In this document: positions 40,907-54,317 of the stretch, in pieces
Numbering within the stretch: the stretch's first letter is position 1
How the letters are laid out: each line of letters opens with the position of its first letter
Origin: Thermoproteota archaeon
GTDB taxonomy: Archaea; Thermoproteota; Thermoprotei_A; Sulfolobales; Ignisphaeraceae
NCBI GenBank assembly: GCA_030550585.1
Contig: JAUQPB010000001.1
Span: forward strand, 558,001 to 622,000
Direction: 5' to 3'
DNA: 64,000 bases
The notes under the pieces: generated by a model
What the model was told of the DNA's origin: nothing
Seen by the model: the letters and a program-made list of their open reading frames with translations, nothing else
Database searches by the model: none
Position numbers and translations under genes: made by a program

Positions 40907-40951
40907 AAGCATTTAACTGTTTACAATATTTCTATAGTGATAGGTGGGAAA

Positions 40952-42406
40952 ATGAAGAAAAAGAATGTTTTACTCATAGCGGTAGCCATCGTATTAATCG
41001 CTGTAGTAGCATCAATAGTTTACATATATTGGCCAAAGCCCGGAGGCGGTGCCTCAATCTCAGAGCAAACTCTCAAGCCTGTTTCCCTTAGAATTATGAC
41101 TACATGGAGTCAGTGGTCCGCTGACGACTTTAACAGGTACTTCTTTGCTGAAAGCGGTATGCCCAGAGCAGGTGTTGTACAACCTTCAGCAGCGATGATA
41201 TTGAATATAACAAATATAACGTTTATACGTGTTGAAGATCCCAAGATATGGCGTGAGGCAGGCCTTAATGGTAGTGTCGATGGGTTCATAGGACAGAATA
41301 GATATAATATAACCACATTGTGTAATGAGGGTGCTTTGCACCCAATACAAGATCCCAAGATACTTGAGCTCGCAAAATATATACCTGACGCACTCAAAGG
41401 CTATACAAAAGATGGGAAGCTGTGCTGGGTTGCCATATACTTTATGCCGTATGTATGGCTTGTTAATCTGGATTATGCGAAGAAAGTGGGGGTTGAAGTG
41501 CCCAGCACATGGTCTGATTTGCTAAAACCAGAGTATCTGTCTATAATTACCCAAGGTGCCTATCTTATGGCGGTTTATCCGGTTCCAAATAGAGATCCTA
41601 TGGTGAATAGCGTGAACACCATTCTTGCTAAATATGGTTGGGAGAAGGGGTGGAGCATAATAGCAGTTGTTATGGGCGCAGCTTCAAGGCTTGAAACAAG
41701 CAGTAAGGCAGCAGGAGATTCTGTAGCATTTGGAAAAGCTCTGCTAACAGTGCTGGCATTCGACTCAGCATTCACGGAGTACTCTATGTTCCCAGGCAAA
41801 CTCGACATAGTGTTCCCCAAGAACGAAACAGGCTATTGGTTTACACCCATAGCTATAGCAGCTAACATTTCCAGCGATAGACTAGACGGTATGTATAGAC
41901 TCATTAGATGGGCTCTAACAGACATGCAAGACAAGATGCTTTTCAACAGATCTGGCTGGAGCTTCAACATGCCGGTTCTAGGATTCAACAATACAAGCCC
42001 TAGAATGGCATATAAGGAAAAAGCCATACAAAACCTCTTTGTTACACCAACAGACCTAGATCTAGCCTTAGGCGAAGCAGCCCCAGCAACAACACTTTAC
42101 GCAAACATACTTGTGTCAGATAAAGATGTGAGAAACCTCCTAAAAGAGGTTGTGACAAAGATTATTGAGAAATATAAATCAAATCAGATAAGCCTTGACG
42201 ACTACTATCGATACATTGAGATGATAGGCCAGCCGCCCAAATTCAAAGATCCTTTAACAGGTAATGAAACAACATTCTCATTGGACGAAGCACGGCGGCT
42301 GGGTAATGCAATACGGAGCGGTGCTATAAAAGGAGAGGATCTTGAAAAAGAGCTGAAAAGTGCTATCATAAACAACCTCAACACCATTTTGCAAGCCCTT
42401 GGCTAG
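40952..42406 (+). CDS. ABC transporter substrate-binding protein (family 1-like), orphan
   Basis: 484 residues from ATG 40952, supported by GGTGGG Shine-Dalgarno; a longer frame from GTG 40937 adds only five residues. One N-terminal membrane anchor (VLLIAVAIVLIAVVASIVYIYW) then a short linker (GGGASISEQT) and a periplasmic-binding-type fold: LRIMTTWSQWSADDFNRYFF, YIPDALKGYTKDGKLCWVAIY, MPYVWLVNLDYAKKVGVEVP with STWSDLLKPEY. This last part is typical of extracellular binding proteins for sugars, iron or polyamines. No permease or ATPase of the same class adjoins it. It opens the polysaccharide locus, so a carbohydrate ligand is likely but inferred. Confidence 0.83.
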   Translation: MKKKNVLLIAVAIVLIAVVASIVYIYWPKPGGGASISEQTLKPVSLRIMTTWSQWSADDFNRYFFAESGMPRAGVVQPSAAMILNITNITFIRVEDPKIWREAGLNGSVDGFIGQNRYNITTLCNEGALHPIQDPKILELAKYIPDALKGYTKDGKLCWVAIYFMPYVWLVNLDYAKKVGVEVPSTWSDLLKPEYLSIITQGAYLMAVYPVPNRDPMVNSVNTILAKYGWEKGWSIIAVVMGAASRLETSSKAAGDSVAFGKALLTVLAFDSAFTEYSMFPGKLDIVFPKNETGYWFTPIAIAANISSDRLDGMYRLIRWALTDMQDKMLFNRSGWSFNMPVLGFNNTSPRMAYKEKAIQNLFVTPTDLDLALGEAAPATTLYANILVSDKDVRNLLKEVVTKIIEKYKSNQISLDDYYRYIEMIGQPPKFKDPLTGNETTFSLDEARRLGNAIRSGAIKGEDLEKELKSAIINNLNTILQALG

Positions 42407-42437
42407 AAAACTACAATCTCTACTCCAATAACACCTA

Positions 42438-42466
42438 TTTAAACTGTAGATAAATTTTTAAACTGT
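42438..42466 (+). promoter_or_regulatory. Promoter with direct repeats before the family 5 binding protein
   Basis: TTTAAACTGT occurs at 42438-42447 and again at 42457-42466, 19 bases apart start to start. The second copy overlaps a TATA-like AAATTTTTAAAC (42452-42463) that predicts transcription near 42484, just before the AGGTGA Shine-Dalgarno. A related ATTTAACTGT sits at the promoter of the preceding gene. The repeats may be operators. Confidence 0.4.
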
Positions 42467-42501
42467 CAACCTAATTTCTTTTCAGATATAAGGTGAACTA
42501 G

Positions 42502-44793
42502 GTGCCTGCAAAGATATCTAAGAAAATGAAAATGGCATATGCATTCACCCTCTTAATGTTGCTAGGAACGCTATCCACATTGGTTATTCAATCGATCCAA
42601 GCACAAGAATTGAAAAGAAGTGAAACGTTTGTCGAAGGCACTGTTGGTGCTCCAGTACTTAACTGGAACATCTTCGCGCCTGGAGGAACTGGGGGCATGG
42701 AGTGGGGCACATGGCAACTCCTATATCTGCCAGTAGCAATGCAAAACACGCTAACACAAGATTGGCTTCTACTGCTTATAGACAGAATAGTGTTTAATGG
42801 AAGTGACATGACGATAACTATTCACATAAGAGACGAGGCTAAGTGGAGCGATGGAACTCCAATAACAAGCAACGATCTAATACAAGGCTACAAGCTAAGT
42901 AGGCAGGTAGGAGCTGGTTTGTGGGGCGATTGGTGTATATACAACTATGAGATAATCGATGATAAGACATTGAAGTACTACATAGGTAGATCGCCAGGAC
43001 AGGAAGCACCACCAAGGGAAGAGGTGTCTATGGATTGGCTTGGAGGGCCCATTGGATGCATACTGTTTGTAAGACCAGTACCCGTACACGTGTTTGGACC
43101 TATTGTTGATCAGATGGGCGATAGTATGAGAGTTAATTGGAGAAACGATGACCCGTCAAAACAGGTTGTATCAGGGCCTTTCAAGCTTTACTATGCCGAT
43201 GCTACAAAGGTTATATATGAGAGGATAGATGATTGGTGGGGCAAGGACATCTTTGGGCTTCCAAAATTCAAGTATCTCGAATTCGTCTACTTCAAGGATG
43301 TGAACCTAGCCATATCTGCAATGCTTAATGGCGATGTCGATGGATTCACACTGCTTGGCGGTGTCTTTGTGCCAAATGTTGCAGATTTGATAGCCAAGGG
43401 CTTGCATGTGTGGTCCAATACAACGCCATACTTCATACCATCTGCTATATACTGGCTGTTCCTGAATTTGAATAACCCAGTTTTCAAGTCTGTTGAGGTT
43501 AGGAGAGCCATTGCATGGGCAATACCATGGGAGGATATTACCAAATACGGCTTATACAATATGGTTGAACAGGCACCTATCGTGGGATTTGTGGCCGAGG
43601 GTGCATACAAGGACTACATTAATCACACTGCATGCATGCAATTCTGGGGCAACCCAGACTGTCTAATGAAGCAGGATATAAACAAAGCGAAGCAGATACT
43701 AGATAGTGCTGGCATTGTAGACAGGGACGGTGATGGCATTAGAGAGCTCCCAGATGGAACAAAGCTAAAATTCACAATAACTGTGGTGGCAGGAGATGTA
43801 ATACAAAATAGTGTAGCCTCGCTAATAGCAGACGCTCTAAGCTCGATTGGTATACAAGCCACAGTTCAAGCGCTAGATTCCAGGGTATGGTGGAACAACT
43901 TCCAAAATGGTCAATTCGATGCAACTCTATGTTGGAGCGCGGGAGCATATGAGGTCGGCCATGTCAGAAACTCTTATGGAAATGCTCTATATCCTTCATG
44001 GGGTAACATGGCTAAGTGGATCGGGTACTCCAACGACAGGCTCAATGCATTGTTTGATGAACTGATGAGGTCTACTATCGATCCAGAGAAAGAGAAGGAG
44101 CTTGTATATGCTATCCAGGAGATATTATTTGAAGACCTGCCATCAATACCATTATACTACACACCACTATTCTGGCTATACAACACAAAATACTGGGACG
44201 GGTGGCCAAATGCAGCAAGGCCGTGGTGGATACCGTCTTGGTGGGGCTCGTTACCAATACTATTCTTCATAGTACCTGCTGGACAGCCTGTAGAAAAGCC
44301 GTGGTGGTTGAAGCAATACGATGAAGGAGGAGCACTAATATCGATGAGCAAATACAATGAATATCTTAGAAAATCCATATACGAAGGACAAAGCTTTGTT
44401 GTAGAATCGGGTAAGCCACCTACAACTACCACTCCACAAACTACCACTACTACTCCTCCGGCCACAACAACTCCTCCTGCTACAACAACATCTCCATCAC
44501 CAACAACTTCGTCTCCAACGCCAACTACGCCAACATTTCCACAAACTACCACTTCGCCAACAGCTCCAACAACTTCACCAACCGCTCCAACACAAGTAGT
44601 AACAGTCACAATTCCATACACAGTTACTGCTACTGCCACAGTCACATCAGTGGCTACAGTCACAACAACATCGGTATCAGTATCACCAACAACAACAACA
44701 GTAGAGGTGACAAACTGGACAATAACAGCAGCACTAGCAATAGCACTACTCATAGTAGGATTCGCAATCGGATGGCTCATAAAAAGAAAATAA
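42502..44793 (+). CDS. ABC transporter family 5 substrate-binding protein with Thr/Pro stalk and C-terminal membrane anchor
   Basis: 763-residue surface protein, probably an oligosaccharide binder rather than a peptide binder given its neighbours. GTG start with AGGTGA five bases upstream. N-terminal signal peptide (MAYAFTLLMLLGTLSTLVIQ, cut near SIQAQ), SBP_bac_5 domain (LTQDWLLLLIDRI, IRDEAKWSDGTPITSNDLI, KQVVSGPFKLYY), a DRDGDGIRELPDG loop that looks calcium-binding, and FDATLCWSAGAYE. From about residue 637 a Thr/Pro/Ser stalk of roughly 100 residues, then EVTNWTITAALAIA, a membrane helix and the final KRK. The stalk and anchor match those of the gene at 46993. Two permease genes follow. 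Confidence 0.9.
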   Translation: MPAKISKKMKMAYAFTLLMLLGTLSTLVIQSIQAQELKRSETFVEGTVGAPVLNWNIFAPGGTGGMEWGTWQLLYLPVAMQNTLTQDWLLLLIDRIVFNGSDMTITIHIRDEAKWSDGTPITSNDLIQGYKLSRQVGAGLWGDWCIYNYEIIDDKTLKYYIGRSPGQEAPPREEVSMDWLGGPIGCILFVRPVPVHVFGPIVDQMGDSMRVNWRNDDPSKQVVSGPFKLYYADATKVIYERIDDWWGKDIFGLPKFKYLEFVYFKDVNLAISAMLNGDVDGFTLLGGVFVPNVADLIAKGLHVWSNTTPYFIPSAIYWLFLNLNNPVFKSVEVRRAIAWAIPWEDITKYGLYNMVEQAPIVGFVAEGAYKDYINHTACMQFWGNPDCLMKQDINKAKQILDSAGIVDRDGDGIRELPDGTKLKFTITVVAGDVIQNSVASLIADALSSIGIQATVQALDSRVWWNNFQNGQFDATLCWSAGAYEVGHVRNSYGNALYPSWGNMAKWIGYSNDRLNALFDELMRSTIDPEKEKELVYAIQEILFEDLPSIPLYYTPLFWLYNTKYWDGWPNAARPWWIPSWWGSLPILFFIVPAGQPVEKPWWLKQYDEGGALISMSKYNEYLRKSIYEGQSFVVESGKPPTTTTPQTTTTTPPATTTPPATTTSPSPTTSSPTPTTPTFPQTTTSPTAPTTSPTAPTQVVTVTIPYTVTATATVTSVATVTTTSVSVSPTTTTVEVTNWTITAALAIALLIVGFAIGWLIKRK

Positions 44794-44807
44794 AATAAAA
44801 CAAAACA

Positions 44808-44820
44808 CTCTTTTTTAATT
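44808..44820 (+). terminator. Oligo-T terminator after the family 5 binding protein gene
   Basis: CTCTTTTTTAATT with six T residues 14 bases past the stop. The same T6 string occurs after two other genes of the locus, fitting intrinsic archaeal termination, which needs only a T-run. Confidence 0.45.
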
Positions 44821-45010
44821 ATTTAACTTTATAGTTCTTTTAAAATGTCTATTCTATATAATAAACAAGAATAGAGGAACTTTTGAGGAACGAAGATTTG
44901 AAATATTTATTGCTTCACGCATAGATTGGTTTACTATAAACTTATTTACAGGTACAAACATTAGTGTTTTAGTGAGTTAGTGAAAAGAGATAATGTGGGG
45001 TATCTAAACA

Positions 45011-46042
45011 ATGGCTAGGCTATCAATAGATAGAAGTGTAGTCATATATCTAATCAGAAAAATTGTGTTGTTGATTGTAACATATTTTATTGCAGTTACA
45101 ATAGTCTTTATATTGCCTAGGCTAATACCAGGCAACCCACTGGCTATGAAAATGCAACAAATTATTCAGCAGTACATATATAATCCTGCGCTAGTTCCAC
45201 AGGTATATAAAGAGCTTTTAAATATATTCCAATTTGATAAGCCGTGGTATGTACAATATGTGACGTTTTTGAGCATGGCTTTTAGAGGGGATTTTGGAAT
45301 ATCTACTGATATGTTTCCACTAAAGGTTACCGACATTATTGCAATGGCATTGCCGTGGACATTGGCGCTGGTGGTTCCAGCTATATTAGCGTCTTGGTTT
45401 GTAGGAAATATTATCGGTGCTTATGCTGGGTATAAAAGAGGGAGTCTATCAGAAAAGGTTATTGTTGGCTATTCACTTATAGTGTCGAGAATACCTTACT
45501 ACTGGTTGGCAATGCTACTGCTGTTTGCCTTTGCATTCCAGTTGCGCATATTTCCTGTAGGTGGAATAACATCTGCGGGTATAAGACCTTCGCTATCAAT
45601 CCAATTTATCGTCGACTATCTATGGCATTACACACTACCGTTTCTGTCGATATTCATAGTCGAATCAGCAGGTTGGATGGGCTCTATGAGAATTTTGGTA
45701 GGTAGCGAGCTAGGCTCAGACTATATACTATATGCTGACTCTCTCGGCACAAAGGATAGAGTCATATTTAGATATGCCTATAGGAACTCTTTGTTGCCTC
45801 AAGTAACAGGGCTTGCTTTAAGCCTAGGGTTTTCGATAACCGGTGTGCTGGTAACAGAAACTGTGTTTAACTATCCAGGGCTTGGATACTTCCTATCAAG
45901 AGCCATTGGATCTCTAGACTATCCTGTTATACAAGGAATATTCCTGATAGTCATAGCAACAGTTTTCATGGCCAACTTCATTGTAGACTTCATATATGCC
46001 TTGATAGACCCGAGAATTAGACTTGGTGGCAGGGGGGTGTAG
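45011..46042 (+). CDS. Dpp/Opp-type ABC transporter permease B
   Basis: 343 residues, about six membrane segments. VIYLIRKIVLLIVTYFIAVT starts the usual DppB N terminus, followed by PRLIPGNPLAMKMQQI, RGDFGISTDMFPLKVTDI and the EAA-type loop ILYADSLGTKDRVIFRYAYRNSLLPQ. In archaea this transporter class often carries sugars (cellobiose, maltose and others). The 217-base gap upstream holds a GTTTACTATAAAC palindrome (44929-44941) overlapping a TATA-like box. Confidence 0.92.
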   Translation: MARLSIDRSVVIYLIRKIVLLIVTYFIAVTIVFILPRLIPGNPLAMKMQQIIQQYIYNPALVPQVYKELLNIFQFDKPWYVQYVTFLSMAFRGDFGISTDMFPLKVTDIIAMALPWTLALVVPAILASWFVGNIIGAYAGYKRGSLSEKVIVGYSLIVSRIPYYWLAMLLLFAFAFQLRIFPVGGITSAGIRPSLSIQFIVDYLWHYTLPFLSIFIVESAGWMGSMRILVGSELGSDYILYADSLGTKDRVIFRYAYRNSLLPQVTGLALSLGFSITGVLVTETVFNYPGLGYFLSRAIGSLDYPVIQGIFLIVIATVFMANFIVDFIYALIDPRIRLGGRGV

Positions 46043-46046
46043 AGCT

Positions 46047-46898
46047 ATGAAAATACCCCTAATGTTATACGCTGTTTTAACAAACAAGAGATTTTTAATA
46101 GGGATTACGGTATTCATGGCAATAGTTTTGCTAGGTCTTATAGGGCCTCTCGTATATCCTAGAAGCCCGTTTGAGAGAGGTCCTCAAAACTTGCCACCAT
46201 CGCTAGAGTATCCCTTGGGCACTGACGGACTTGGCAGAGATGTTTTTGCACAGTTTCTATATGCTATAAGAACCTCTCTCTTCATAGGACTTGTAACAGC
46301 TCTAATAGCATTGCCTATAGGATTGGTGATAGGGGCTGTTGCAGGAATTAAAGGCGGTCTTATAGACGATGCTCTGATGTCTTTAACAAACATCTTCTTA
46401 GCTATTCCAAACTGGCTTGTGGCTGTCCTCATAGCATCTTATCTGCCGCCGGAGCAGCGAGGTCCTCACATAATAGCAACCTTGATAGGGTTGTTTAGCT
46501 GGCCCTGGTTTGCAAGAGCTATCAGAGCACAGCTTATGAGTTTAAAGGAAAGAGAGTTCATATACCTATCTAGAATGGCTGGCTGGGGAGACCTGAAAAT
46601 AGTTTTTGTAGATCTTCTACCAAATCTAGGGCCGTATATAGTAAGCGCCTTTGCAGCATTTATGGCTGGTGGCATAGCTGGAGAAGCAGGATTAGCACTA
46701 CTACTCTCAACACAGATGGTGAAATACGTCTCACTAGGTATGATGCTATATTGGGCCAGCTACTTTGTAGCCTATGTAACTGGTGCGTGGTGGCTTTTCC
46801 TACCGCCAGGAATAACAATAGTAGCATTGACAACATCTCTAACGCTAGTTGCTTTAGGATTGGAAGACGTGTTCAATCCAAGGCTTAGAGGAATATAA
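46047..46898 (+). CDS. Dpp/Opp-type ABC transporter permease C
   Basis: Second permease, 283 residues from ATG 46047; the open frame reaches TTG 46023 but that overlaps permease B, and GGGGTG precedes the ATG. Typical DppC features: EYPLGTDGLGRDVFAQFLYAIR, GLVIGAVAGIKGGLIDDALM and the EAA loop EFIYLSRMAGWGDLKIVFVDLLPN. No DppD/DppF ATPase gene follows, so the importer must use an ATPase encoded elsewhere. Confidence 0.92.
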   Translation: MKIPLMLYAVLTNKRFLIGITVFMAIVLLGLIGPLVYPRSPFERGPQNLPPSLEYPLGTDGLGRDVFAQFLYAIRTSLFIGLVTALIALPIGLVIGAVAGIKGGLIDDALMSLTNIFLAIPNWLVAVLIASYLPPEQRGPHIIATLIGLFSWPWFARAIRAQLMSLKEREFIYLSRMAGWGDLKIVFVDLLPNLGPYIVSAFAAFMAGGIAGEAGLALLLSTQMVKYVSLGMMLYWASYFVAYVTGAWWLFLPPGITIVALTTSLTLVALGLEDVFNPRLRGI

Positions 46899-46904
46899 AA
46901 TTAA

Positions 46905-46917
46905 ATGTCTTTTTTAA
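46905..46917 (+). terminator. Oligo-T terminator after the permease genes
   Basis: TGTCTTTTTTAAT, six T residues about 11 bases after the permease C stop; nearly the same as the strings at 44808 and 54324. Confidence 0.45.
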
Positions 46918-46944
46918 TTAATGCGTCTTCCCCATTTTAATATA

Positions 46945-46965
46945 GATTTATATAGTGGTTACTAT
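46945..46965 (+). promoter_or_regulatory. TATA box and adjacent inverted repeat before the GH12-like gene
   Basis: GATTTATATA (46945-46954) predicts transcription near 46976, about 16 bases before ATG 46993. Between box and start site lies ATAGT-GGTT-ACTAT (46952-46965), a perfect inverted repeat that could let a repressor block the polymerase. Confidence 0.45.
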
Positions 46966-46992
46966 CCTTATATCAAGTAAAGGGTAGACAAT

Positions 46993-48294
46993 ATGTCAAA
47001 TACAAAACTACTTGCAATAACATTTATAGCTGTAATACAGGTAGTACTGTTATTGCTATACGCCTCAAGCGCCTATGCTGAAGCCGCTGGTGTTGCTGTG
47101 TTGTTCCCACCTCCAACACCGGTTAAGGGTGTTAAAACAGCTGATCCGAGCAATCGGTGGACTAGCGTAGATCTTGATAATGCCCAGTTTATGGCTAATC
47201 TGTGGAATCTTGCAACTGGTGCTCAAGGCAGTATGATAATGAATTTTACTGGCTCATATGTGGAGGTTTTTGGGAACTTTACAAATCTTCCAAAATCGGT
47301 AACGGTACAAGGTGGTCCTGGGATTAGATATGGTCAGGGTATATGGGGTGGTCTACCACCTGCACACCCACTATACAACATACCTAAGAAGGTAACTGCA
47401 CTTCCGTATGCAATATTCTTTGCAAACTATACCATATATGAGAAAGAATCTACACTCCCATTAACAGCAGCACTATATCTATGGACTGTAGAAGCTCTTC
47501 GCAGTAGCGGTACTCAGGCAGGGGATGTGCTTGTCATAGTTAGAGTCTATAGGCATCCCGGAGCACCTTTAACAGGAACTCCCCAAGCTCAAGCTAATGT
47601 AACAGCACCGCTCATAGTTAACAACACCCTTGTCTATGGTAACTTCGAGGTATTTGTCGGCAATCTTGATAGATCAGCAAATACACATACAACTGTGGTC
47701 TTCGAGCTTACAGCCCCTATTAGGAGTGGTAGAGTTGGTATACCAGTGCAAGACTACATAGCTCTTGCAGCAAACATTCTAGAGTCTCTAGCACCAAAGG
47801 TTTGGAGCAGAGCAATGGTGCTAAACAACACACTTCAAATGATAGACTTCACAATCGAGTGGTATTCCAACCAACAAGGTGGGGGTGTGTTTAAGTGGAG
47901 GCTATACGAAGTCTCATTCCTTGTGGGGGCAAAGCCCATACTAACAACAGTTACACTAACAAAAACAGCTACATCCACATTAACAACAACCTCCACAATC
48001 GTTAGTACTGTTGTTAATACTGTTCCAACTACGGTTGTATCCACGGTGACCTCCTCCATTCCAACAACAGTAACTTCTATTGTGACAACACCGACAACAG
48101 TTTTAGTGCCTGTGACTACTACTGCTACCACTACAGTTAGATCTGTTGCCACAGTTACGTCCACCACTACGGTTGTATCCACATCGACCTCTCCAATAAC
48201 GCAGACTGTGACCAACTGGTCAACAGCAATAGCCCTAGGAATAGTGTTGCTGATAATCGGGTTTGTAATTGGGTGGGTTGTAAAAAGAAAATAA
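46993..48294 (+). CDS. Secreted, membrane-anchored protein with a possible divergent GH12 (endoglucanase-like) domain
   Basis: 433 residues. Signal peptide 1-30 (VIQVVLLLLYASSAYAEAAG). The globular part (about 35-312) is beta-rich and shows several features I associate with glycoside hydrolase family 12: ANLWNLATGAQGSMIMNFTG, an aromatic/glycine stretch RYGQGIWGGLP, GDVLVIVRVYRHPGAPLTG where the family has its nucleophile strand, FEVFVGNLDRSANTHTTVVF and DFTIEWYSNQQ near the usual acid/base Glu (E289). The nucleophile Glu would be D178, so activity is doubtful. Residues 318-405 are a Thr/Val/Ser stalk, then VTNWSTAIALGIVLLIIGF, a membrane helix and KRK. Could instead be a carbohydrate-binding surface protein. 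Confidence 0.6.
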   Translation: MSNTKLLAITFIAVIQVVLLLLYASSAYAEAAGVAVLFPPPTPVKGVKTADPSNRWTSVDLDNAQFMANLWNLATGAQGSMIMNFTGSYVEVFGNFTNLPKSVTVQGGPGIRYGQGIWGGLPPAHPLYNIPKKVTALPYAIFFANYTIYEKESTLPLTAALYLWTVEALRSSGTQAGDVLVIVRVYRHPGAPLTGTPQAQANVTAPLIVNNTLVYGNFEVFVGNLDRSANTHTTVVFELTAPIRSGRVGIPVQDYIALAANILESLAPKVWSRAMVLNNTLQMIDFTIEWYSNQQGGGVFKWRLYEVSFLVGAKPILTTVTLTKTATSTLTTTSTIVSTVVNTVPTTVVSTVTSSIPTTVTSIVTTPTTVLVPVTTTATTTVRSVATVTSTTTVVSTSTSPITQTVTNWSTAIALGIVLLIIGFVIGWVVKRK

Positions 48295-48297
48295 ATA

Positions 48298-48303
48298 TTT
48301 TTT
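48298..48303 (+). terminator. Oligo-T terminator after the GH12-like gene
   Basis: Six T residues (ATATTTTTTAAATT) starting 4 bases after the stop codon. Confidence 0.35.
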
Positions 48304-48399
48304 AAATTAATATTTCATGTATTTTTGTTCTGTGCATTGGTGTTCCTTTGTGTTGTGCTATACACGTTGAGAGAGCCCTAGTTTTTTTGCTTGGGCATA

Positions 48400-48422
48400 G
48401 ACATGCAAATTAGTTGCAAGTC
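48400..48422. promoter_or_regulatory. Inverted repeat upstream of the URO-D-family gene, candidate operator
   Basis: GACATGCAA-ATTAG-TTGCAAGTC: arms match at 8 of 9 positions. It lies just upstream of the TATA box at 48431, the usual place for an archaeal activator or repressor site. The left arm with its flank (ATAGACATGCAA, 48397-48408) recurs at 55806-55817. Confidence 0.45.
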
Positions 48423-48430
48423 TCATGTAT

Positions 48431-48440
48431 GTTTAAATAC
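48431..48440 (+). promoter_or_regulatory. TATA box for the URO-D-family gene
   Basis: GTTTAAATAC predicts transcription near 48460, leaving a leader of about 5 nt before ATG 48465, i.e. a nearly leaderless mRNA. Confidence 0.5.
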
Positions 48441-48464
48441 TAACATTCGGTTTTTGGATTATTT

Positions 48465-49793
48465 ATGAGAGAAGTCGTATATAAGTCTAGGGAAAGGGTT
48501 TTAATAGCTTTAAGACATGAAGAGGCTGATAGGATACCAATTGATTTGGGCTCTACGCATGTATCAACAATAAATCCTTTATCCTACACCAATCTGAGAA
48601 GATACTTGGGCTTCTCCGAAAAGCCTGCTAGGGTTAAGGATGTTGTGGCACAGCTTACTGAGATAGATCTAGATGTTCTACGAGTTTTCCATGTAGATTT
48701 GATAGATGTTAATAGGCACTTGCCTCCATCACCTGGAGAAGAATATTACAGAGATGTGTTCTACCAATGTATGTCCTGTCCATATAGAAACCCCGAAACA
48801 GGCAGGGCTGAGATATTCGAGAACAACTGGAAGATTTGGAGCCATCCACACCACGGATTTTCAGAAGAGGTTCCAGCATGTATTGATATTGTTGAAAAAG
48901 AGAATAACTTATTAATATACCTCTATAAAACTGTTCTAATTGGTGGAGGCCCCAAAACATCCACAACGTTTTCTCCACTTGATGCACATGGAGTCAATCC
49001 TTTGGCTGATGCAAAAAGTGTTGAAGATGTTAAGAAATTTGACTGGGATTTGTTTAAGGTCAGCGACAAATATGTTGACTATCTAAGGAAGAAGGCCGAG
49101 TATCTCTATAAGAATACAGACTATGCATTGGTATATTCTCTAGCTGGTCGCATGCATGCCTGGGCACAGGCACTAAGGGGTTGGACTAGGTGGCTTGCAG
49201 ATCTCCGGCTTAGAAAGGTGTTGGCAGAGGCGGTTCTTGATAACATAATGGATGTGTTGATGTACAATGTAAAGAGGTTTGTAGACGCTTTTGGAGAGTA
49301 TGTCCAGGTTATAGGTTTTGCAGATGACTTGGGGACTGAAGAAGGGCCTCAAATACCTGTTCAGCTCTTTAGGGATATGTATAAACATAGGTATGAAGAA
49401 TTGTTTGGCTATATCAAGAAACATTCTAAGATGTACATATTCTTGCATAGTGATGGAGCTATATTTCCACTCATAAAAGAGTTCATAGATGCTGGACTCG
49501 ATATAATTAACCCCATTCAGCTGTCGGCAAAGGGTATGGATCCCGAAAAGCTTAAGAAGGAATATGGGGAACAAATCACCTTTTGGGGAGGTGGAGCAGA
49601 TGTTCAACGCATTCTACCATTCGCCAACAAGGATGAAGTGGTTCAGCATGTTAAAAACCTTATAAAGATCTTTGCACCCGGTGGAGGTTTCGTGTTTGCG
49701 GCAACACACAATATTCAGCCTCCTACACCACCAGAAAACATAGTAGCAGTGTTTGAGACTGCATACAAATATGGCAAATACCCTATTATCTAA
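48465..49793 (+). CDS. Uroporphyrinogen decarboxylase-family protein (methyltransferase-like)
   Basis: 442 residues of the URO-D superfamily, the group that includes corrinoid methyltransferases MtaA/MtbA, not true HemE. Seen: SRERVLIALRHEEADRIPIDLGS at the start, LVYSLAGRMHAWAQALRGW, VIGFADDLGTEEGPQIPVQLF, FLHSDGAIFPLIKEFIDAG with IINPIQLSAKGMDPEKLKKEYG, and VFAATHNIQPPTPPENIVAVFE. The MtaA-type H-x-C zinc motif is not conserved (HSDG instead). Proteins of this branch are often found near sugar-utilisation genes, with unknown reaction. Its place between two surface hydrolase genes suggests a role with a methylated or modified sugar; that is inference. Confidence 0.83.
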   Translation: MREVVYKSRERVLIALRHEEADRIPIDLGSTHVSTINPLSYTNLRRYLGFSEKPARVKDVVAQLTEIDLDVLRVFHVDLIDVNRHLPPSPGEEYYRDVFYQCMSCPYRNPETGRAEIFENNWKIWSHPHHGFSEEVPACIDIVEKENNLLIYLYKTVLIGGGPKTSTTFSPLDAHGVNPLADAKSVEDVKKFDWDLFKVSDKYVDYLRKKAEYLYKNTDYALVYSLAGRMHAWAQALRGWTRWLADLRLRKVLAEAVLDNIMDVLMYNVKRFVDAFGEYVQVIGFADDLGTEEGPQIPVQLFRDMYKHRYEELFGYIKKHSKMYIFLHSDGAIFPLIKEFIDAGLDIINPIQLSAKGMDPEKLKKEYGEQITFWGGGADVQRILPFANKDEVVQHVKNLIKIFAPGGGFVFAATHNIQPPTPPENIVAVFETAYKYGKYPII

Positions 49794-49940
49794 ACTTTTG
49801 AGGTTCTGGCGAAAAGCAGCTCATATTCAGTATAATGAATTTATCTTTGTCTTCAGCGGAAATGTATCGTGAAGACGGTTGTAGACATTGCTCCTCTCTA
49901 ACTTAACTATAGTATGTGTTACCACTCTGTTGCACCATAA

Positions 49941-49951
49941 TTTTTTTTAAG
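49941..49951 (+). promoter_or_regulatory. TATA-like box for the DUF2139-like gene
   Basis: TTTTTTTTAAG predicts transcription near 49972, 16 bases before ATG 49988, and so favours that start over GTG 49916. Confidence 0.4.
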
Positions 49952-49987
49952 ATGCTATCCAATAGTATATTCTCACGGTCATTGAGT

Positions 49988-51478
49988 ATGTCTGGTCACA
50001 AACTACATCTAAGAAAATTCATAACCCATGAAGAAGTTGGTATGGGGCAAAATCAGTTTAGGTGCTTTTATCTAGCGTTCCATCCAGTAAATGGTTCGCT
50101 GGTTGTACATGAGGGGCACTCAGGAAGAGTTTACATGGATGGAAGGCTCATCTATGGGTATGAACTGGTTGGCAAACCTCCAAGAGCTGGGGGAGACACC
50201 CACGGGGCTATCACATGGAATAGAGACTATGTCTTCTTTGGCGGTTGGGTGAAGGCGCCTCCAGGGCTTTTGATTGCAAGTGATAGAACCTTGGCTAAAC
50301 AGGATATGAGGGAGAAGTATAGTCATATACATGCTATTGATGATGGTGGTAGGGTGGAGCTTATATGGTCTAGGAAATGGGATGATAAACTCCCTCCAAA
50401 TCACTGGTATGGGGAGGTGACAGATCTTCTTTATGATGGGCATGAGGATGCAATCTATTTTACGAGAGCCGATGGATATGCAGAGCTTGGTCTCTGGAGA
50501 ATAAACGTGTCGAGTAGAAGAGCCGAGTGGATTGTTCGAAACAGAACTGTTTACAAGATGGAAATGAAGGACGACAAGATATTTGCCACCTTATTTAACC
50601 CTGCTCACATGGAGAAATCGGCTATTGTAGTTTTCGACACCTTGAGAAATGAAACTAGAATTGTAGAGGAATTCAACTTTGCTTTAGAGCCTGGAAGAAA
50701 AGTTTCTATGTATCGCGATGGCGGTCAGATAGTCCAATTACAGAATAGATTGATAGCATTTTACGGAGGTTCTATGATAGTTGTTGATCCCTATAGAGAT
50801 AGCTACACCTTGTATCCATTTCTAGAGGTAGCAGGTTCGAAGGAAAATGCTGTTATACCCAACCCAGAAAGACCCCTATATATACCCGGGCTAAGAACAC
50901 AGAAAATATATCCAATGGGGGTTCCAGTAATCGCTGCAAACCCATATGAGGGCTCTACAGAGCCGTTCCACAAAACAACATTCGGAATGATATTGAGAAT
51001 AGATTCTGTATCGCCACAGATAATATCATCTGCAGGATTCATATCAGGTATAGCAACAGATGGAGAATATGCATACTTTGGAGCATCATATGCTAACCAC
51101 TGCCCACATTACACATATAGAACAGGCGATGGAGGCATATTTGCAGTACCAATAAAAGATCTGTTCGCAAAGCCGTGGAATCCCATAAGACTATGGATAT
51201 ACGATGGAATGTACAGCCAAGAATCGTCAGGGTTATTCGGATGGTTTGGAGGCATACCACTAAAAGGCTTTGAAAAGAAGATTCTTAGAATATACACATC
51301 AAAAGAAGCAAAGATTAGAATAGCGGAATACACAATGCTAGGCATAAGCATAGAAGAAGATGTTGCAGTGAAAACGGGTTGGAACACAATATCACTTGAA
51401 AACCACTATGACATAGTAGCATTCAAGATCCTAGAAAATGTTGATAAAATCCTTGCCGAAATAATTTTAGAGCCGTAG
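49988..51478 (+). CDS. DUF2139-like protein, probable beta-propeller
   Basis: 496 residues from ATG 49988; the open frame reaches 49916 but that part (LPLCCTIIFF) is not protein-like and lies over the promoter. The sequence is made of beta-rich repeats, as in a propeller: AFHPVNGSLVVHEGHSGRVY, DTHGAITWNRDYVFFGGWVK, GHEDAIYFTRADGYAELGLW, GIATDGEYAYFGASYANHCP. I recall a mostly crenarchaeal family, DUF2139, of this kind and size. No signal peptide, so it is probably cytoplasmic. Its position in the sugar locus hints at a lyase, hydrolase or binding role, but no catalytic residues can be named. Confidence 0.72.
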   Translation: MSGHKLHLRKFITHEEVGMGQNQFRCFYLAFHPVNGSLVVHEGHSGRVYMDGRLIYGYELVGKPPRAGGDTHGAITWNRDYVFFGGWVKAPPGLLIASDRTLAKQDMREKYSHIHAIDDGGRVELIWSRKWDDKLPPNHWYGEVTDLLYDGHEDAIYFTRADGYAELGLWRINVSSRRAEWIVRNRTVYKMEMKDDKIFATLFNPAHMEKSAIVVFDTLRNETRIVEEFNFALEPGRKVSMYRDGGQIVQLQNRLIAFYGGSMIVVDPYRDSYTLYPFLEVAGSKENAVIPNPERPLYIPGLRTQKIYPMGVPVIAANPYEGSTEPFHKTTFGMILRIDSVSPQIISSAGFISGIATDGEYAYFGASYANHCPHYTYRTGDGGIFAVPIKDLFAKPWNPIRLWIYDGMYSQESSGLFGWFGGIPLKGFEKKILRIYTSKEAKIRIAEYTMLGISIEEDVAVKTGWNTISLENHYDIVAFKILENVDKILAEIILEP

Positions 51479-51727
51479 GCAACATTTAAAACACAATCGT
51501 TTCTTGCATTTCCATTTTTTATAAAAATCGTAGGAGGTCAAAACTCTCTATCAGCAATCTCAAAGCTTCTGAAAGAAGTATAGGAACTTGTATGAGCAAC
51601 TTCAGATGAGGTCGTAGATAGCATAGCTTTTATACTTTAGCATACATCCAAAAACCTTTGTCTCTATAACAACTTATTGTCAGTTAATATTTTATTTAAA
51701 GTTTTTATAGATAGGTATATAACAATA
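51479..51727. other. Non-coding gap before the GH-A hydrolase gene
   Basis: About 250 bases without a convincing gene; only short frames. It holds TTTTTTATAAAAA (about 51516) near the upstream gene end, and AT-rich blocks TATTTTATTTAAAG (around 51691) that could be extra promoter or enhancer elements. Nothing else seen. Confidence 0.4.
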
Positions 51728-51738
51728 GGTTTATAAAG
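51728..51738 (+). promoter_or_regulatory. TATA box for the GH-A hydrolase gene
   Basis: GGTTTATAAAG predicts transcription near 51758; a GAGGAGGGT Shine-Dalgarno at 51760-51768 follows, 5 bases before ATG 51774. Confidence 0.5.
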
Positions 51739-51773
51739 TAAAGAATGGCATCAAAATATGAGGAGGGTAATGT

Positions 51774-54317
51774 ATGACAAACACAAAAATGAGTATTTCA
51801 GCATTGGCAGCATTATTGATCATCATAATGTCTATTGTATCTGGTGTGGCAGGATATTTGATAGGCTCCTCAAAATCTTCGACCATGACTCAAACCTATG
51901 TTTACACATCGATAATTTCAAATACAATAGAGGTGCCAACAACCATAACCGTTCCTACAACAATTCCTACAACACTGTCGTTACCGCCCTCCACAGTTAT
52001 AATACCTTACACAACAACAATATCAAGTGTCATGCCCACAACTGTTTTTACTACTACAACTACGATTAGCACTATTACAATGAGGAGCACTATTACAGTC
52101 ACAGTGACGGGTCAGCCTATGACTATACCAACTGGCGATAGACTATTCCCATTTTACTTTCCTTGGAACGATGCAATGCAAACAGATATAAGCTTAGCTA
52201 CATATATAGACAAGCCCGCCGGTAAATACGGGCCTGTTACTGTTGGGTCTGATGGTCATTTGTATGTTGGTGGTAAGAGGATTAGGTTCTTGGGCGTTAG
52301 TGTTGTAGCTACCGGCGCGTTTCCATCGAAAGAAGAGGCTGACATTATAGCAGCTAGACTGGCAAAATATGGTATAAATCTTGTTAGATTCCATGCCATA
52401 GACGCTAATTGGGAGCCTAACAACAACATATTCTCGCCTCCAGGAACAAGACAACTGAATTTGAAGAACTTAGACAGAATGGACTATTTTATTGCCGCTC
52501 TAAAAAGAAATGGAATATACATTGACCTCAATCTTATGTGTTATAGACAATTCTCTTCAGCCGATGGGTTGCCGAGCGAGGTAAATACAATGCAGGTTAA
52601 GGATCAGCATCTCCTACCATTCTTCTATGATCCTGCTAGGCAGCTTGTAAAGGAGTTTGCAAGGCAGTTGCTGACGCATGTGAATCCGTATACGGGCTTG
52701 TCGTATGCTGATGACCCTGCAGTAGCCTTTATAGAGATCTTGAATGAGTATGGAATGACATTTGGTTGGTTTGATGGCGCTGTTGACAGGCTTCCACAGG
52801 TCTTTAGAAATGCCTTGAGAGAGAAGTGGAATGAATTTCTAATAAGCAAGTATGGCACAACAGAAAATCTTGCCAAGGCATGGGGAAAAAGCCTTTTACC
52901 TGGCGAGAGTCTAGAGAACAAAACAGTTGATGTATTCAACTATGCAGACATTATGATAAAAAGACCTACTCTTCAAGCAAGGCTTGACTGGGCTGAGTTT
53001 CTATGGCAGCTCGACTACGACTATTTTATGGATATGTACAGTTTTTTGAAGAATGAGTTGAAGGTTAAGGCTGTTGTTATTGGTACGCAGTCTGCTTGGG
53101 GTGGGCTGCCGAATGTTATGGCTCGGCTTGATGCTGTTGATTCTCATCATTATTGGAGGTATCCTGAGGGTAGTGGCAGTATTTGGTATGTTGTGAACGA
53201 CCCTATGGTGAACAATCCAACCTTTAACACAATGTCCCAGCTAGCATTTAGAAGCGTATATGGAAAGCCATTTACTGTCAGCGAGTATAACCACCCAGCA
53301 CCAAACATGTATAGAGCCGAAGGATTTGCATTCCTACCAGCTTTCGCAGCATTCCAAGACTGGGACGCCATAATGCCATACAACTACGGCCCGTGGACCT
53401 CAAGACAGATGGCGCTTGCTAGCTGGAACTCAGGAAGAATGAGAGGAACACTAGACTTTGATCAAGACCCTGTTAGATGGGCTCTAATGCTAACATCATA
53501 CTTCCTATTTGTTAGAGGAGATGTAAGCCCAGCAAAACAACTTGTAGTTGCCGAAATGACGAAATCTAAGGAGCTGGATCTAGTAGCAAATAGGGTTGCA
53601 AGTGTCTGGAATCTTCCAAACGCTGGACAACTAAATGTTCCATACTATGTCCCACTAATACACGGATTCAGAATGATTGTAGATAATACCACCCTACCGA
53701 CAGACGCTCTTTCACCAGAGGATGTAGCACCTCCAACAGATAATGTTATTAGGTCTGATACTGGAGAGCTTGTATGGGATTGCAGCATTCCCAATAGATG
53801 TGTGTTTATTGTTAATACGAGTAAGAGTATTGTTTTGACGGGTTATGTGAGTGGGAGGAGATTCGACTTTGGAGCAGTATCTATAGAGGTTGGAGACACT
53901 CTACTAGATGGCTGGGCAACAATAGCTCTACACGTTCTAGATGGCAATAGCTTCCAAGACGCAAAAAGAATACTTGTCATAGCCATTGGAACAGGATTCA
54001 ACAACAACATGCCCATATACAACTACGACAACAGACAACTACTATTCAGAACATCAACAAACCTAACAAAAGACCAGCTAGCTAGTTTATATAGAATGAG
54101 AATATCCACATTTGATAATTGGGGCTCGGCTCCAACCATTGTAGAGGGTATTGAGGCTAACATAACTATCAAGACCAATAAAAATGTTATATGCTGGGCT
54201 CTAGACAATATAGGCGAAAAGGCTGGAACACTAAGCCCAATTAGATCTGGAGATCAATGGAATATAAAAATATTGCCGACATATAGAACACTATTATATG
54301 AAATATTAGTATATTAA
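51774..54317 (+). CDS. Large membrane-anchored glycoside hydrolase, GH-A clan (GH5-like, cellulase-like)
   Basis: 847 residues. An N-terminal membrane helix (about 8-31) anchors the protein, followed by a Thr/Pro/Ser linker (about 35-118). The catalytic TIM barrel starts near 150: GGKRIRFLGVSVVATGAFP, KYGINLVRFHAIDANWEP, NGIYIDLNLMCYRQF, then FIEILNEYG with acid/base E325, VDSHHYWRYP, and PFTVSEYNHP with nucleophile E504, the layout of clan GH-A enzymes. Residues from about 600 are beta-rich domains. The layout resembles the archaeal multidomain cellulase reported as EBI-244, from memory. Beta-glucan or related hemicellulose is the likely substrate. Codon use is mosaic within the gene. Confidence 0.87.
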   Translation: MTNTKMSISALAALLIIIMSIVSGVAGYLIGSSKSSTMTQTYVYTSIISNTIEVPTTITVPTTIPTTLSLPPSTVIIPYTTTISSVMPTTVFTTTTTISTITMRSTITVTVTGQPMTIPTGDRLFPFYFPWNDAMQTDISLATYIDKPAGKYGPVTVGSDGHLYVGGKRIRFLGVSVVATGAFPSKEEADIIAARLAKYGINLVRFHAIDANWEPNNNIFSPPGTRQLNLKNLDRMDYFIAALKRNGIYIDLNLMCYRQFSSADGLPSEVNTMQVKDQHLLPFFYDPARQLVKEFARQLLTHVNPYTGLSYADDPAVAFIEILNEYGMTFGWFDGAVDRLPQVFRNALREKWNEFLISKYGTTENLAKAWGKSLLPGESLENKTVDVFNYADIMIKRPTLQARLDWAEFLWQLDYDYFMDMYSFLKNELKVKAVVIGTQSAWGGLPNVMARLDAVDSHHYWRYPEGSGSIWYVVNDPMVNNPTFNTMSQLAFRSVYGKPFTVSEYNHPAPNMYRAEGFAFLPAFAAFQDWDAIMPYNYGPWTSRQMALASWNSGRMRGTLDFDQDPVRWALMLTSYFLFVRGDVSPAKQLVVAEMTKSKELDLVANRVASVWNLPNAGQLNVPYYVPLIHGFRMIVDNTTLPTDALSPEDVAPPTDNVIRSDTGELVWDCSIPNRCVFIVNTSKSIVLTGYVSGRRFDFGAVSIEVGDTLLDGWATIALHVLDGNSFQDAKRILVIAIGTGFNNNMPIYNYDNRQLLFRTSTNLTKDQLASLYRMRISTFDNWGSAPTIVEGIEANITIKTNKNVICWALDNIGEKAGTLSPIRSGDQWNIKILPTYRTLLYEILVY

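Follow-up and report, generated by a model that had tools for sequence, protein, structure and literature searches.

Gene content and transcription signals

The window analyzed here is a 64,000-nucleotide stretch (G000:C4:558001-622000) of the 1.76-Mb genome, referred to as G000, of a heat-loving archaeon that is likely to be an Ignisphaera-like crenarchaeon. Our subject is a set of eight genes at window positions 40937-54317 that a first-pass annotation, made from the sequence alone, had read as one system that binds, cuts, imports and processes a beta-glucan or a decorated hemicellulose. All eight predicted open reading frames (ORFs) are present on the + strand within 13 kb, and their family assignments were checked against Pfam, NCBIfam and the PDB. 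The first gene, A (40937..42406, with an alternative start at ATG 40952), encodes an extracellular solute-binding protein of the SBP_bac_8/6 type (E 2e-9) with an N-terminal membrane segment, and B (42502..44793) encodes a family 5 solute-binding protein (SBP_bac_5, E 6e-47) held by a C-terminal Thr-rich stalk and a transmembrane (TM) anchor. The products of C (45011..46042) and D (46047..46898) are permeases of the DppB/OppB and DppC/OppC types, respectively, both of which match BPD_transp_1 (E 5e-35 and 1e-17), the latter being Opp4C-like; the D frame is open from TTG 46023, but ATG 46047 is probably the right start. E (46993..48294) encodes a GH12-fold protein without the catalytic nucleophile, followed by a Thr-rich stalk and a C-terminal TM anchor. 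Downstream lie F (48465..49793), for a URO-D-fold protein (Pfam URO-D, E 4e-16) predicted to be a corrinoid methyltransferase, G (49988..51478), for a member of a second DUF2139 subfamily (Pfam DUF2139, E 6e-36), and H (51774..54317), for a clan GH-A hydrolase with an N-terminal TM anchor and a Thr-rich linker. The frame of G is open from 49916; four other members begin to align at Met25 of this long ORF, and the start is probably ATG 49988.

Transcription signals are frequent within the locus. A run of six T (T6) lies no more than 25 nt past the stop codon of B, D, E and H, that is, at four of seven stops, which is far above the chance expectation of approximately 0.01 per site. Candidate TATA-like boxes, which are short motifs, are found roughly 30-55 nt 5' of A, B, E, F, G and H; the box of E (TTTATATA, 46947..46954, + strand) is one example. 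Judged from the T6 runs and the boxes before most genes, the locus is made up of several transcription units and is not one operon.

The probable importer block and its GH12-fold member

We searched 11 genomes of the genus and found that only A-E (40937-48294) are conserved as a block, in four of them (G000, G044, G002 and G013). The spacing is similar in G000, G044 and G002, and in G013 the block spans a contig break. Orthologues of A, 60-76% identical, take the same position in the other three genomes, and those of C are 74-84% identical. The description of A as an orphan binding protein is thus not upheld: A opens the block in all four genomes, and its paralogues adjoin other Dpp modules.

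With a family 5 binding protein and two BPD_transp_1 permeases, the core of an Opp/Dpp importer is present. The solved chain nearest to B is 2o7i, a Thermotoga Opp-type sugar-binding protein (E 1e-98 over ~590 residues), and B also matches 3i5o, of the same TM0031 type, 4jsd (E ~1e-98) and the mannoside-binding 4pfu (E 3e-42). The TM0031-type protein binds cellulose oligosaccharides, and B is a predicted beta-gluco-oligosaccharide receptor. Because the nearest solved relative of B is a sugar-binding protein, block A-E is probably a sugar importer. The Dpp/Opp family names, and NCBIfam oligopeptide permease matches that fall under the cut-off, could be taken to mean that the importer carries peptides and that the glycosidase genes are mere neighbors; we consider this very improbable, given that the top solved relatives of B are sugar-binding members from Thermotoga, that a GH12-fold gene is the fixed fifth member of the block, and that other Dpp-type loci (L106, L113 and L197) also contain GH12 genes.

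The annotated import function stands as far as permeases and binding proteins are concerned; no DppD or DppF ATPase gene was found within the block, so the importer is incomplete at this locus. Twelve DppD/DppF-type matches occur in the G000 genome, and among the loci examined a single pair, at G000:C4:148446-150268 (L150), is without permeases. In G002 the genes follow one another on the same strand in the order DppD-DppF-242aa-A-B-C-D-E, and the DppD of this genome is 74% identical to that of the unattached pair; in G013 a paralogous A-D block is preceded by a DppD-DppF pair 73-76% identical to the unattached one. The position of the G002 orthologue directly upstream of the block strongly suggests that the unattached pair powers C-D. 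Thermophiles are known in which the ATPases are encoded apart from the sugar permeases (PMC11212667).

In three genomes, a gene for a protein of 242-254 aa is located ahead of the SBP8-SBP5-DppBC block or one of its paralogues (L161 3737-4498, L159 3613-4377 and L187 1717-2445). Two of the three were scanned and matched no known Pfam family; the protein is perhaps a regulator or accessory factor.

E has no Pfam match. In the PDB it matches the Pyrococcus GH12 enzyme EGPf (E 1.5e-14) as well as TmCel12A, and the AF2 model of residues 31-311, with pLDDT mostly above 85, returns the GH12 fold, a beta-jelly-roll, in Foldseek (TM-score to target ~0.85), in line with the annotation of an anchored GH12-like protein. 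The nucleophile position, however, is occupied by Leu180 in all four orthologues, as opposed to Glu in 22 of 22 relatives, and the surrounding motif is altered as well, with Ile in place of Met and Arg in place of Trp. All four retain the acid/base Glu289, and MAFFT and HMMER alignments concur on the catalytic positions. Loss of both catalytic Glu residues was considered and rejected, as the wider alignment retains Glu289 and only the nucleophile is lost. The E domains of G000 and G044 are 88% identical with a ratio of nonsynonymous to synonymous divergence (dN/dS) of 0.085, similar to that of neighboring genes; from these values E is under purifying selection and is not decaying.

Based on these observations, E is probably not a cutter but a surface glucan-binding pseudo-cellulase. 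Going by PDB titles, sugar-bound structures exist of GH12 enzymes mutated at the nucleophile, namely EGPf E197A with laminaribiose (3wy6) and TmCel12A E134C (3amp and 3amq). Loss of the nucleophile Glu is therefore no bar to binding, and a receptor role for E would be compatible with it. The conserved Glu289 leaves room for activity by another mechanism, for example as an inverting hydrolase or with a different nucleophile. This appears improbable: not only the nucleophile but also its flanking motif is changed throughout the orthologues, and catalysis need not rely on E, since two other G000 proteins carry GH12 motifs with both catalytic Glu residues.

In another family, a GH12-like domain occurs in a 1708-aa protein of G005 (L113 4720-9846), encoded directly beside an SBP5-DppBCDF operon.

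The hydrolase, the URO-D protein and the DUF2139 protein

H gives weak matches to Glyco_hydro_42 (E 3e-6) and Cellulase (E 7e-3) in Pfam and matches GH5 mannanases in the PDB (E 8e-5). Both catalytic residues, Glu325 in the N324-E325 Asn-Glu motif and Glu504, are invariant in six homologues. The annotation of an anchored GH-A hydrolase is borne out, and H is the probable cutter of the polymer. Outside the genus, the one collection that was scanned yields only distant, bacterial relatives. Additional copies of H occur in G013 and G002; one, in G013, is fused to an intact GH12, and one adjoins a Dpp operon. The G013 fusion (L014 9973-14070) is a 1365-aa protein in which a linker rich in Thr and Pro attaches the GH-A hydrolase to a GH12 domain that has its two catalytic Glu residues. 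A pterin-binding protein encoded upstream of GH-A in G013 was considered as a second link to methyl transfer and dropped, being present in 10 of 11 genomes and probably a housekeeping protein.

The first-pass annotation left two members, F and G, without assigned chemistry. For F, this can probably be narrowed. Matches of F to the UroD-type corrinoid methyltransferases of NCBIfam are weak (E ~1e-5, far below the cut-off), and no solved structure was found in the PDB for its URO-D profile; in G013, G034, G068, G074 and G024, close relatives of F are encoded next to corrinoid proteins of the MtaC/MtbC type. The G013 case concerns an orthologue 80% identical to F; in the G000 genome a corrinoid protein is encoded elsewhere (G000:C4:695657-696319). 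The putative Zn ligands of F are His328, Asp330 and His415, so that F has His-x-Asp where its paralogues have His-x-Cys; His415 aligns with what we take to be the last Cys, the third ligand, of MtaA. The His-Cys-Cys zinc site of the S-methyltransferase type is thus not present at the aligned places. This site marks S-methyltransferases, and in O-methyltransferases the Cys residues are replaced by carboxylates or non-ligands (PMC10418091). F is most likely a corrinoid methyltransferase and perhaps an O-demethylase.

F lies beside an alpha-L-fucosidase gene in G044 (L036). Because F kin and corrinoid genes adjoin glycosidases and the Zn motif is not His-Cys-Cys, a reasoned guess is that F would act as a sugar O-demethylase. 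Literature searches turned up no corrinoid methyltransferase linked to an archaeal glycosidase locus, and no description of corrinoid-dependent O-demethylation of methylated sugars was among the papers found. Further instances of this type of neighborhood were observed: in two further species of this genus, pairs of URO-D and corrinoid genes adjoin GH78 alpha-L-rhamnosidases (L115 and L116), and the corrinoid gene of G000 is directly beside GH35-type and raffinose-synthase/GH36-type genes (L223 3400-9319; G000:C4 ~690.4-696.3 kb).

The model of G is all-beta and of low confidence (pLDDT 57, pTM 0.58), with Foldseek matches to propellers of many kinds; G is probably a cytosolic beta-propeller with a beta-sandwich. 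Assigning a chemistry from structure was abandoned, the model confidence being too low. Members of its DUF2139 subfamily adjoin SBP5/Dpp operons in G002 and G013, one in G190, a distant genome, shows 60% identity and has an intact GH12 as its neighbor, and our literature searches turned up no paper on DUF2139.

Co-occurrence, proposed system and known counterparts

Of the four genomes, only G000 has the eight genes gathered within 13 kb. F and G are adjacent only in G000 and G044, and H lies away from the block in G044, G013 and G002. Within the genus, the importer block, full-length E, the DUF2139 subfamily of G, and H nevertheless occur in exactly the same four of the 11 genomes searched. 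On a gatB tree these four do not form one clade, and their distribution requires approximately three gains or losses, two of which are forced by the starred branches. G024, the sister of G000 and G044, is without E and H and carries a decayed full-length DUF2139 copy (L039 8606-9909) with several stops and frameshifts. A single gain does not account for this identical distribution, and the evidence favors a functional module, though not one operon. Of the earlier proposal that the genes form one system, functional togetherness is supported, as are the capture, cleavage and uptake of a polymer of the beta-glucan kind, whereas one conserved locus is limited to A-E; the genes do co-occur elsewhere.

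Alternatively, A-E, F-G and H could be two or three unrelated modules for sugar use that are neighbors by chance. They are apart in G044, G002 and G013, most genes have promoter-like boxes of their own, and a T6 run follows several stops. The synonymous divergence (dS) of F and G from G044 is ~0.5, compared with 0.9-1.5 for A-E and H, which may point to an exchange that was separate or later, and possibly to a different history. Unrelated modules would, however, have to be gained or lost repeatedly in parallel for the importer block, the DUF2139 subfamily and GH-A to end up in identical genomes, and the DUF2139 copy has decayed in G024, where the other members of the module are missing. We regard side-by-side modules as unlikely, albeit the most serious of the alternatives.

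We propose instead, with slightly better than even confidence, that the genes encode a cell-surface feeding system for a beta-1,4-glucan-type polysaccharide, which could be cellulose, or a glucan or hemicellulose with some methylated sugars. In such a system: (i) anchored H would cleave the polymer outside the membrane; (ii) anchored E would hold glucan chains in its cleft without cutting them, keeping the substrate at the surface; (iii) anchored B, perhaps together with A, would pick up oligosaccharides and pass them to the permease C-D, driven by the remote DppD-DppF pair; and (iv) inside the cell, F would transfer methyl groups from the imported sugars to a corrinoid protein, and the sugar would also be acted on by G.

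What the sequence shows is the identity of the genes, the conserved block, the lost nucleophile of E, the intact catalytic residues of H and the co-occurrence; the ligand, glucan binding by E, the ATPase pairing, O-demethylation by F and the role of G are inferred. Several points weigh against this proposal. A has no recognized ligand, and for family 5 binding proteins homology is a weak guide to solute specificity. Elsewhere, F, G and H mostly lie apart from the block, and the co-occurrence was drawn from 11 genomes and a tree of a single marker gene whose inner branches are poorly supported. Finally, no corrinoid gene is adjacent to F in the window, the nearest F relative with one being that of G013, and F orthologues are more widespread than the four genomes (72% identity in G034).

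The use of crystalline polysaccharides above 80 °C is known from few archaea, and the genes involved are not well delimited. The locus offers candidates that can be put to the test, namely a hydrolase of clan GH-A, a pseudo-cellulase that would serve as receptor, an importer whose ATPase pair is encoded remotely, and an enzyme that may O-demethylate sugars. If selection has maintained GH12 in a catalytically dead form, the protein would be a naturally occurring module for glucan binding that withstands very high temperature, and B12-dependent sugar demethylation, if true, would be a new tie of one-carbon metabolism to polysaccharide use. The parts of the finding are more interesting than the locus as a single unit. 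A broader idea, that the system is a hyperthermophilic archaeal analogue of bacterial surface glycan capture in which a dead cellulase serves as an importer-fixed glucan receptor and is combined with corrinoid O-demethylation of methylated sugars, is speculative and, on balance, rather unlikely.

Among known systems, the Thermotoga maritima TM0031-type and Pyrococcus furiosus CbtA importers resemble the block in having a family 5 binding protein, two Opp-type permeases and a beta-glucoside theme; CbtA, which we liken by description, binds cellobiose (PMC11212667). Unlike these, the block is without ATPase genes and has in addition an SBP_8-type protein, a fixed pseudo-GH12 and a C-terminal TM anchor on B. 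E shares its fold and acid/base Glu with the GH12 endoglucanases EGPf (P. furiosus), TmCel12A and TMDG_GH12, but has Leu for the nucleophile Glu, and Ile and Arg for the adjacent Met and Trp. H is similar in kind of architecture, by description and not by sequence, to EBI-244, an unclassified GH5 multidomain extracellular cellulase from an Ignisphaera-like archaeon with an optimum of 109 °C (PMC3526467, PMC7469102).

With the UroD-superfamily corrinoid methyltransferases (MtaA/MtbA and the aromatic O-demethylases OdmB/VdmB), F shares the fold, the corrinoid neighbors of its relatives and a non-His-Cys-Cys Zn motif; the sequence match is weak, and the setting is one of glycosidase genes and not of methanogenesis or lignin aromatics. 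Archaeal anaerobic O-demethylation is an idea in common with methoxydotrophy in Archaeoglobus fulgidus and Bathyarchaeia, the substrates of which are methoxylated aromatics (PMC8359953, PMC10989822); sugars are a guess for F from the neighboring glycosidases. An Opp/Dpp-type glucan importer with a surface glycosidase is a known class; what sets this version apart is its pseudo-GH12, its remotely encoded ATPases and its probable link to corrinoids.

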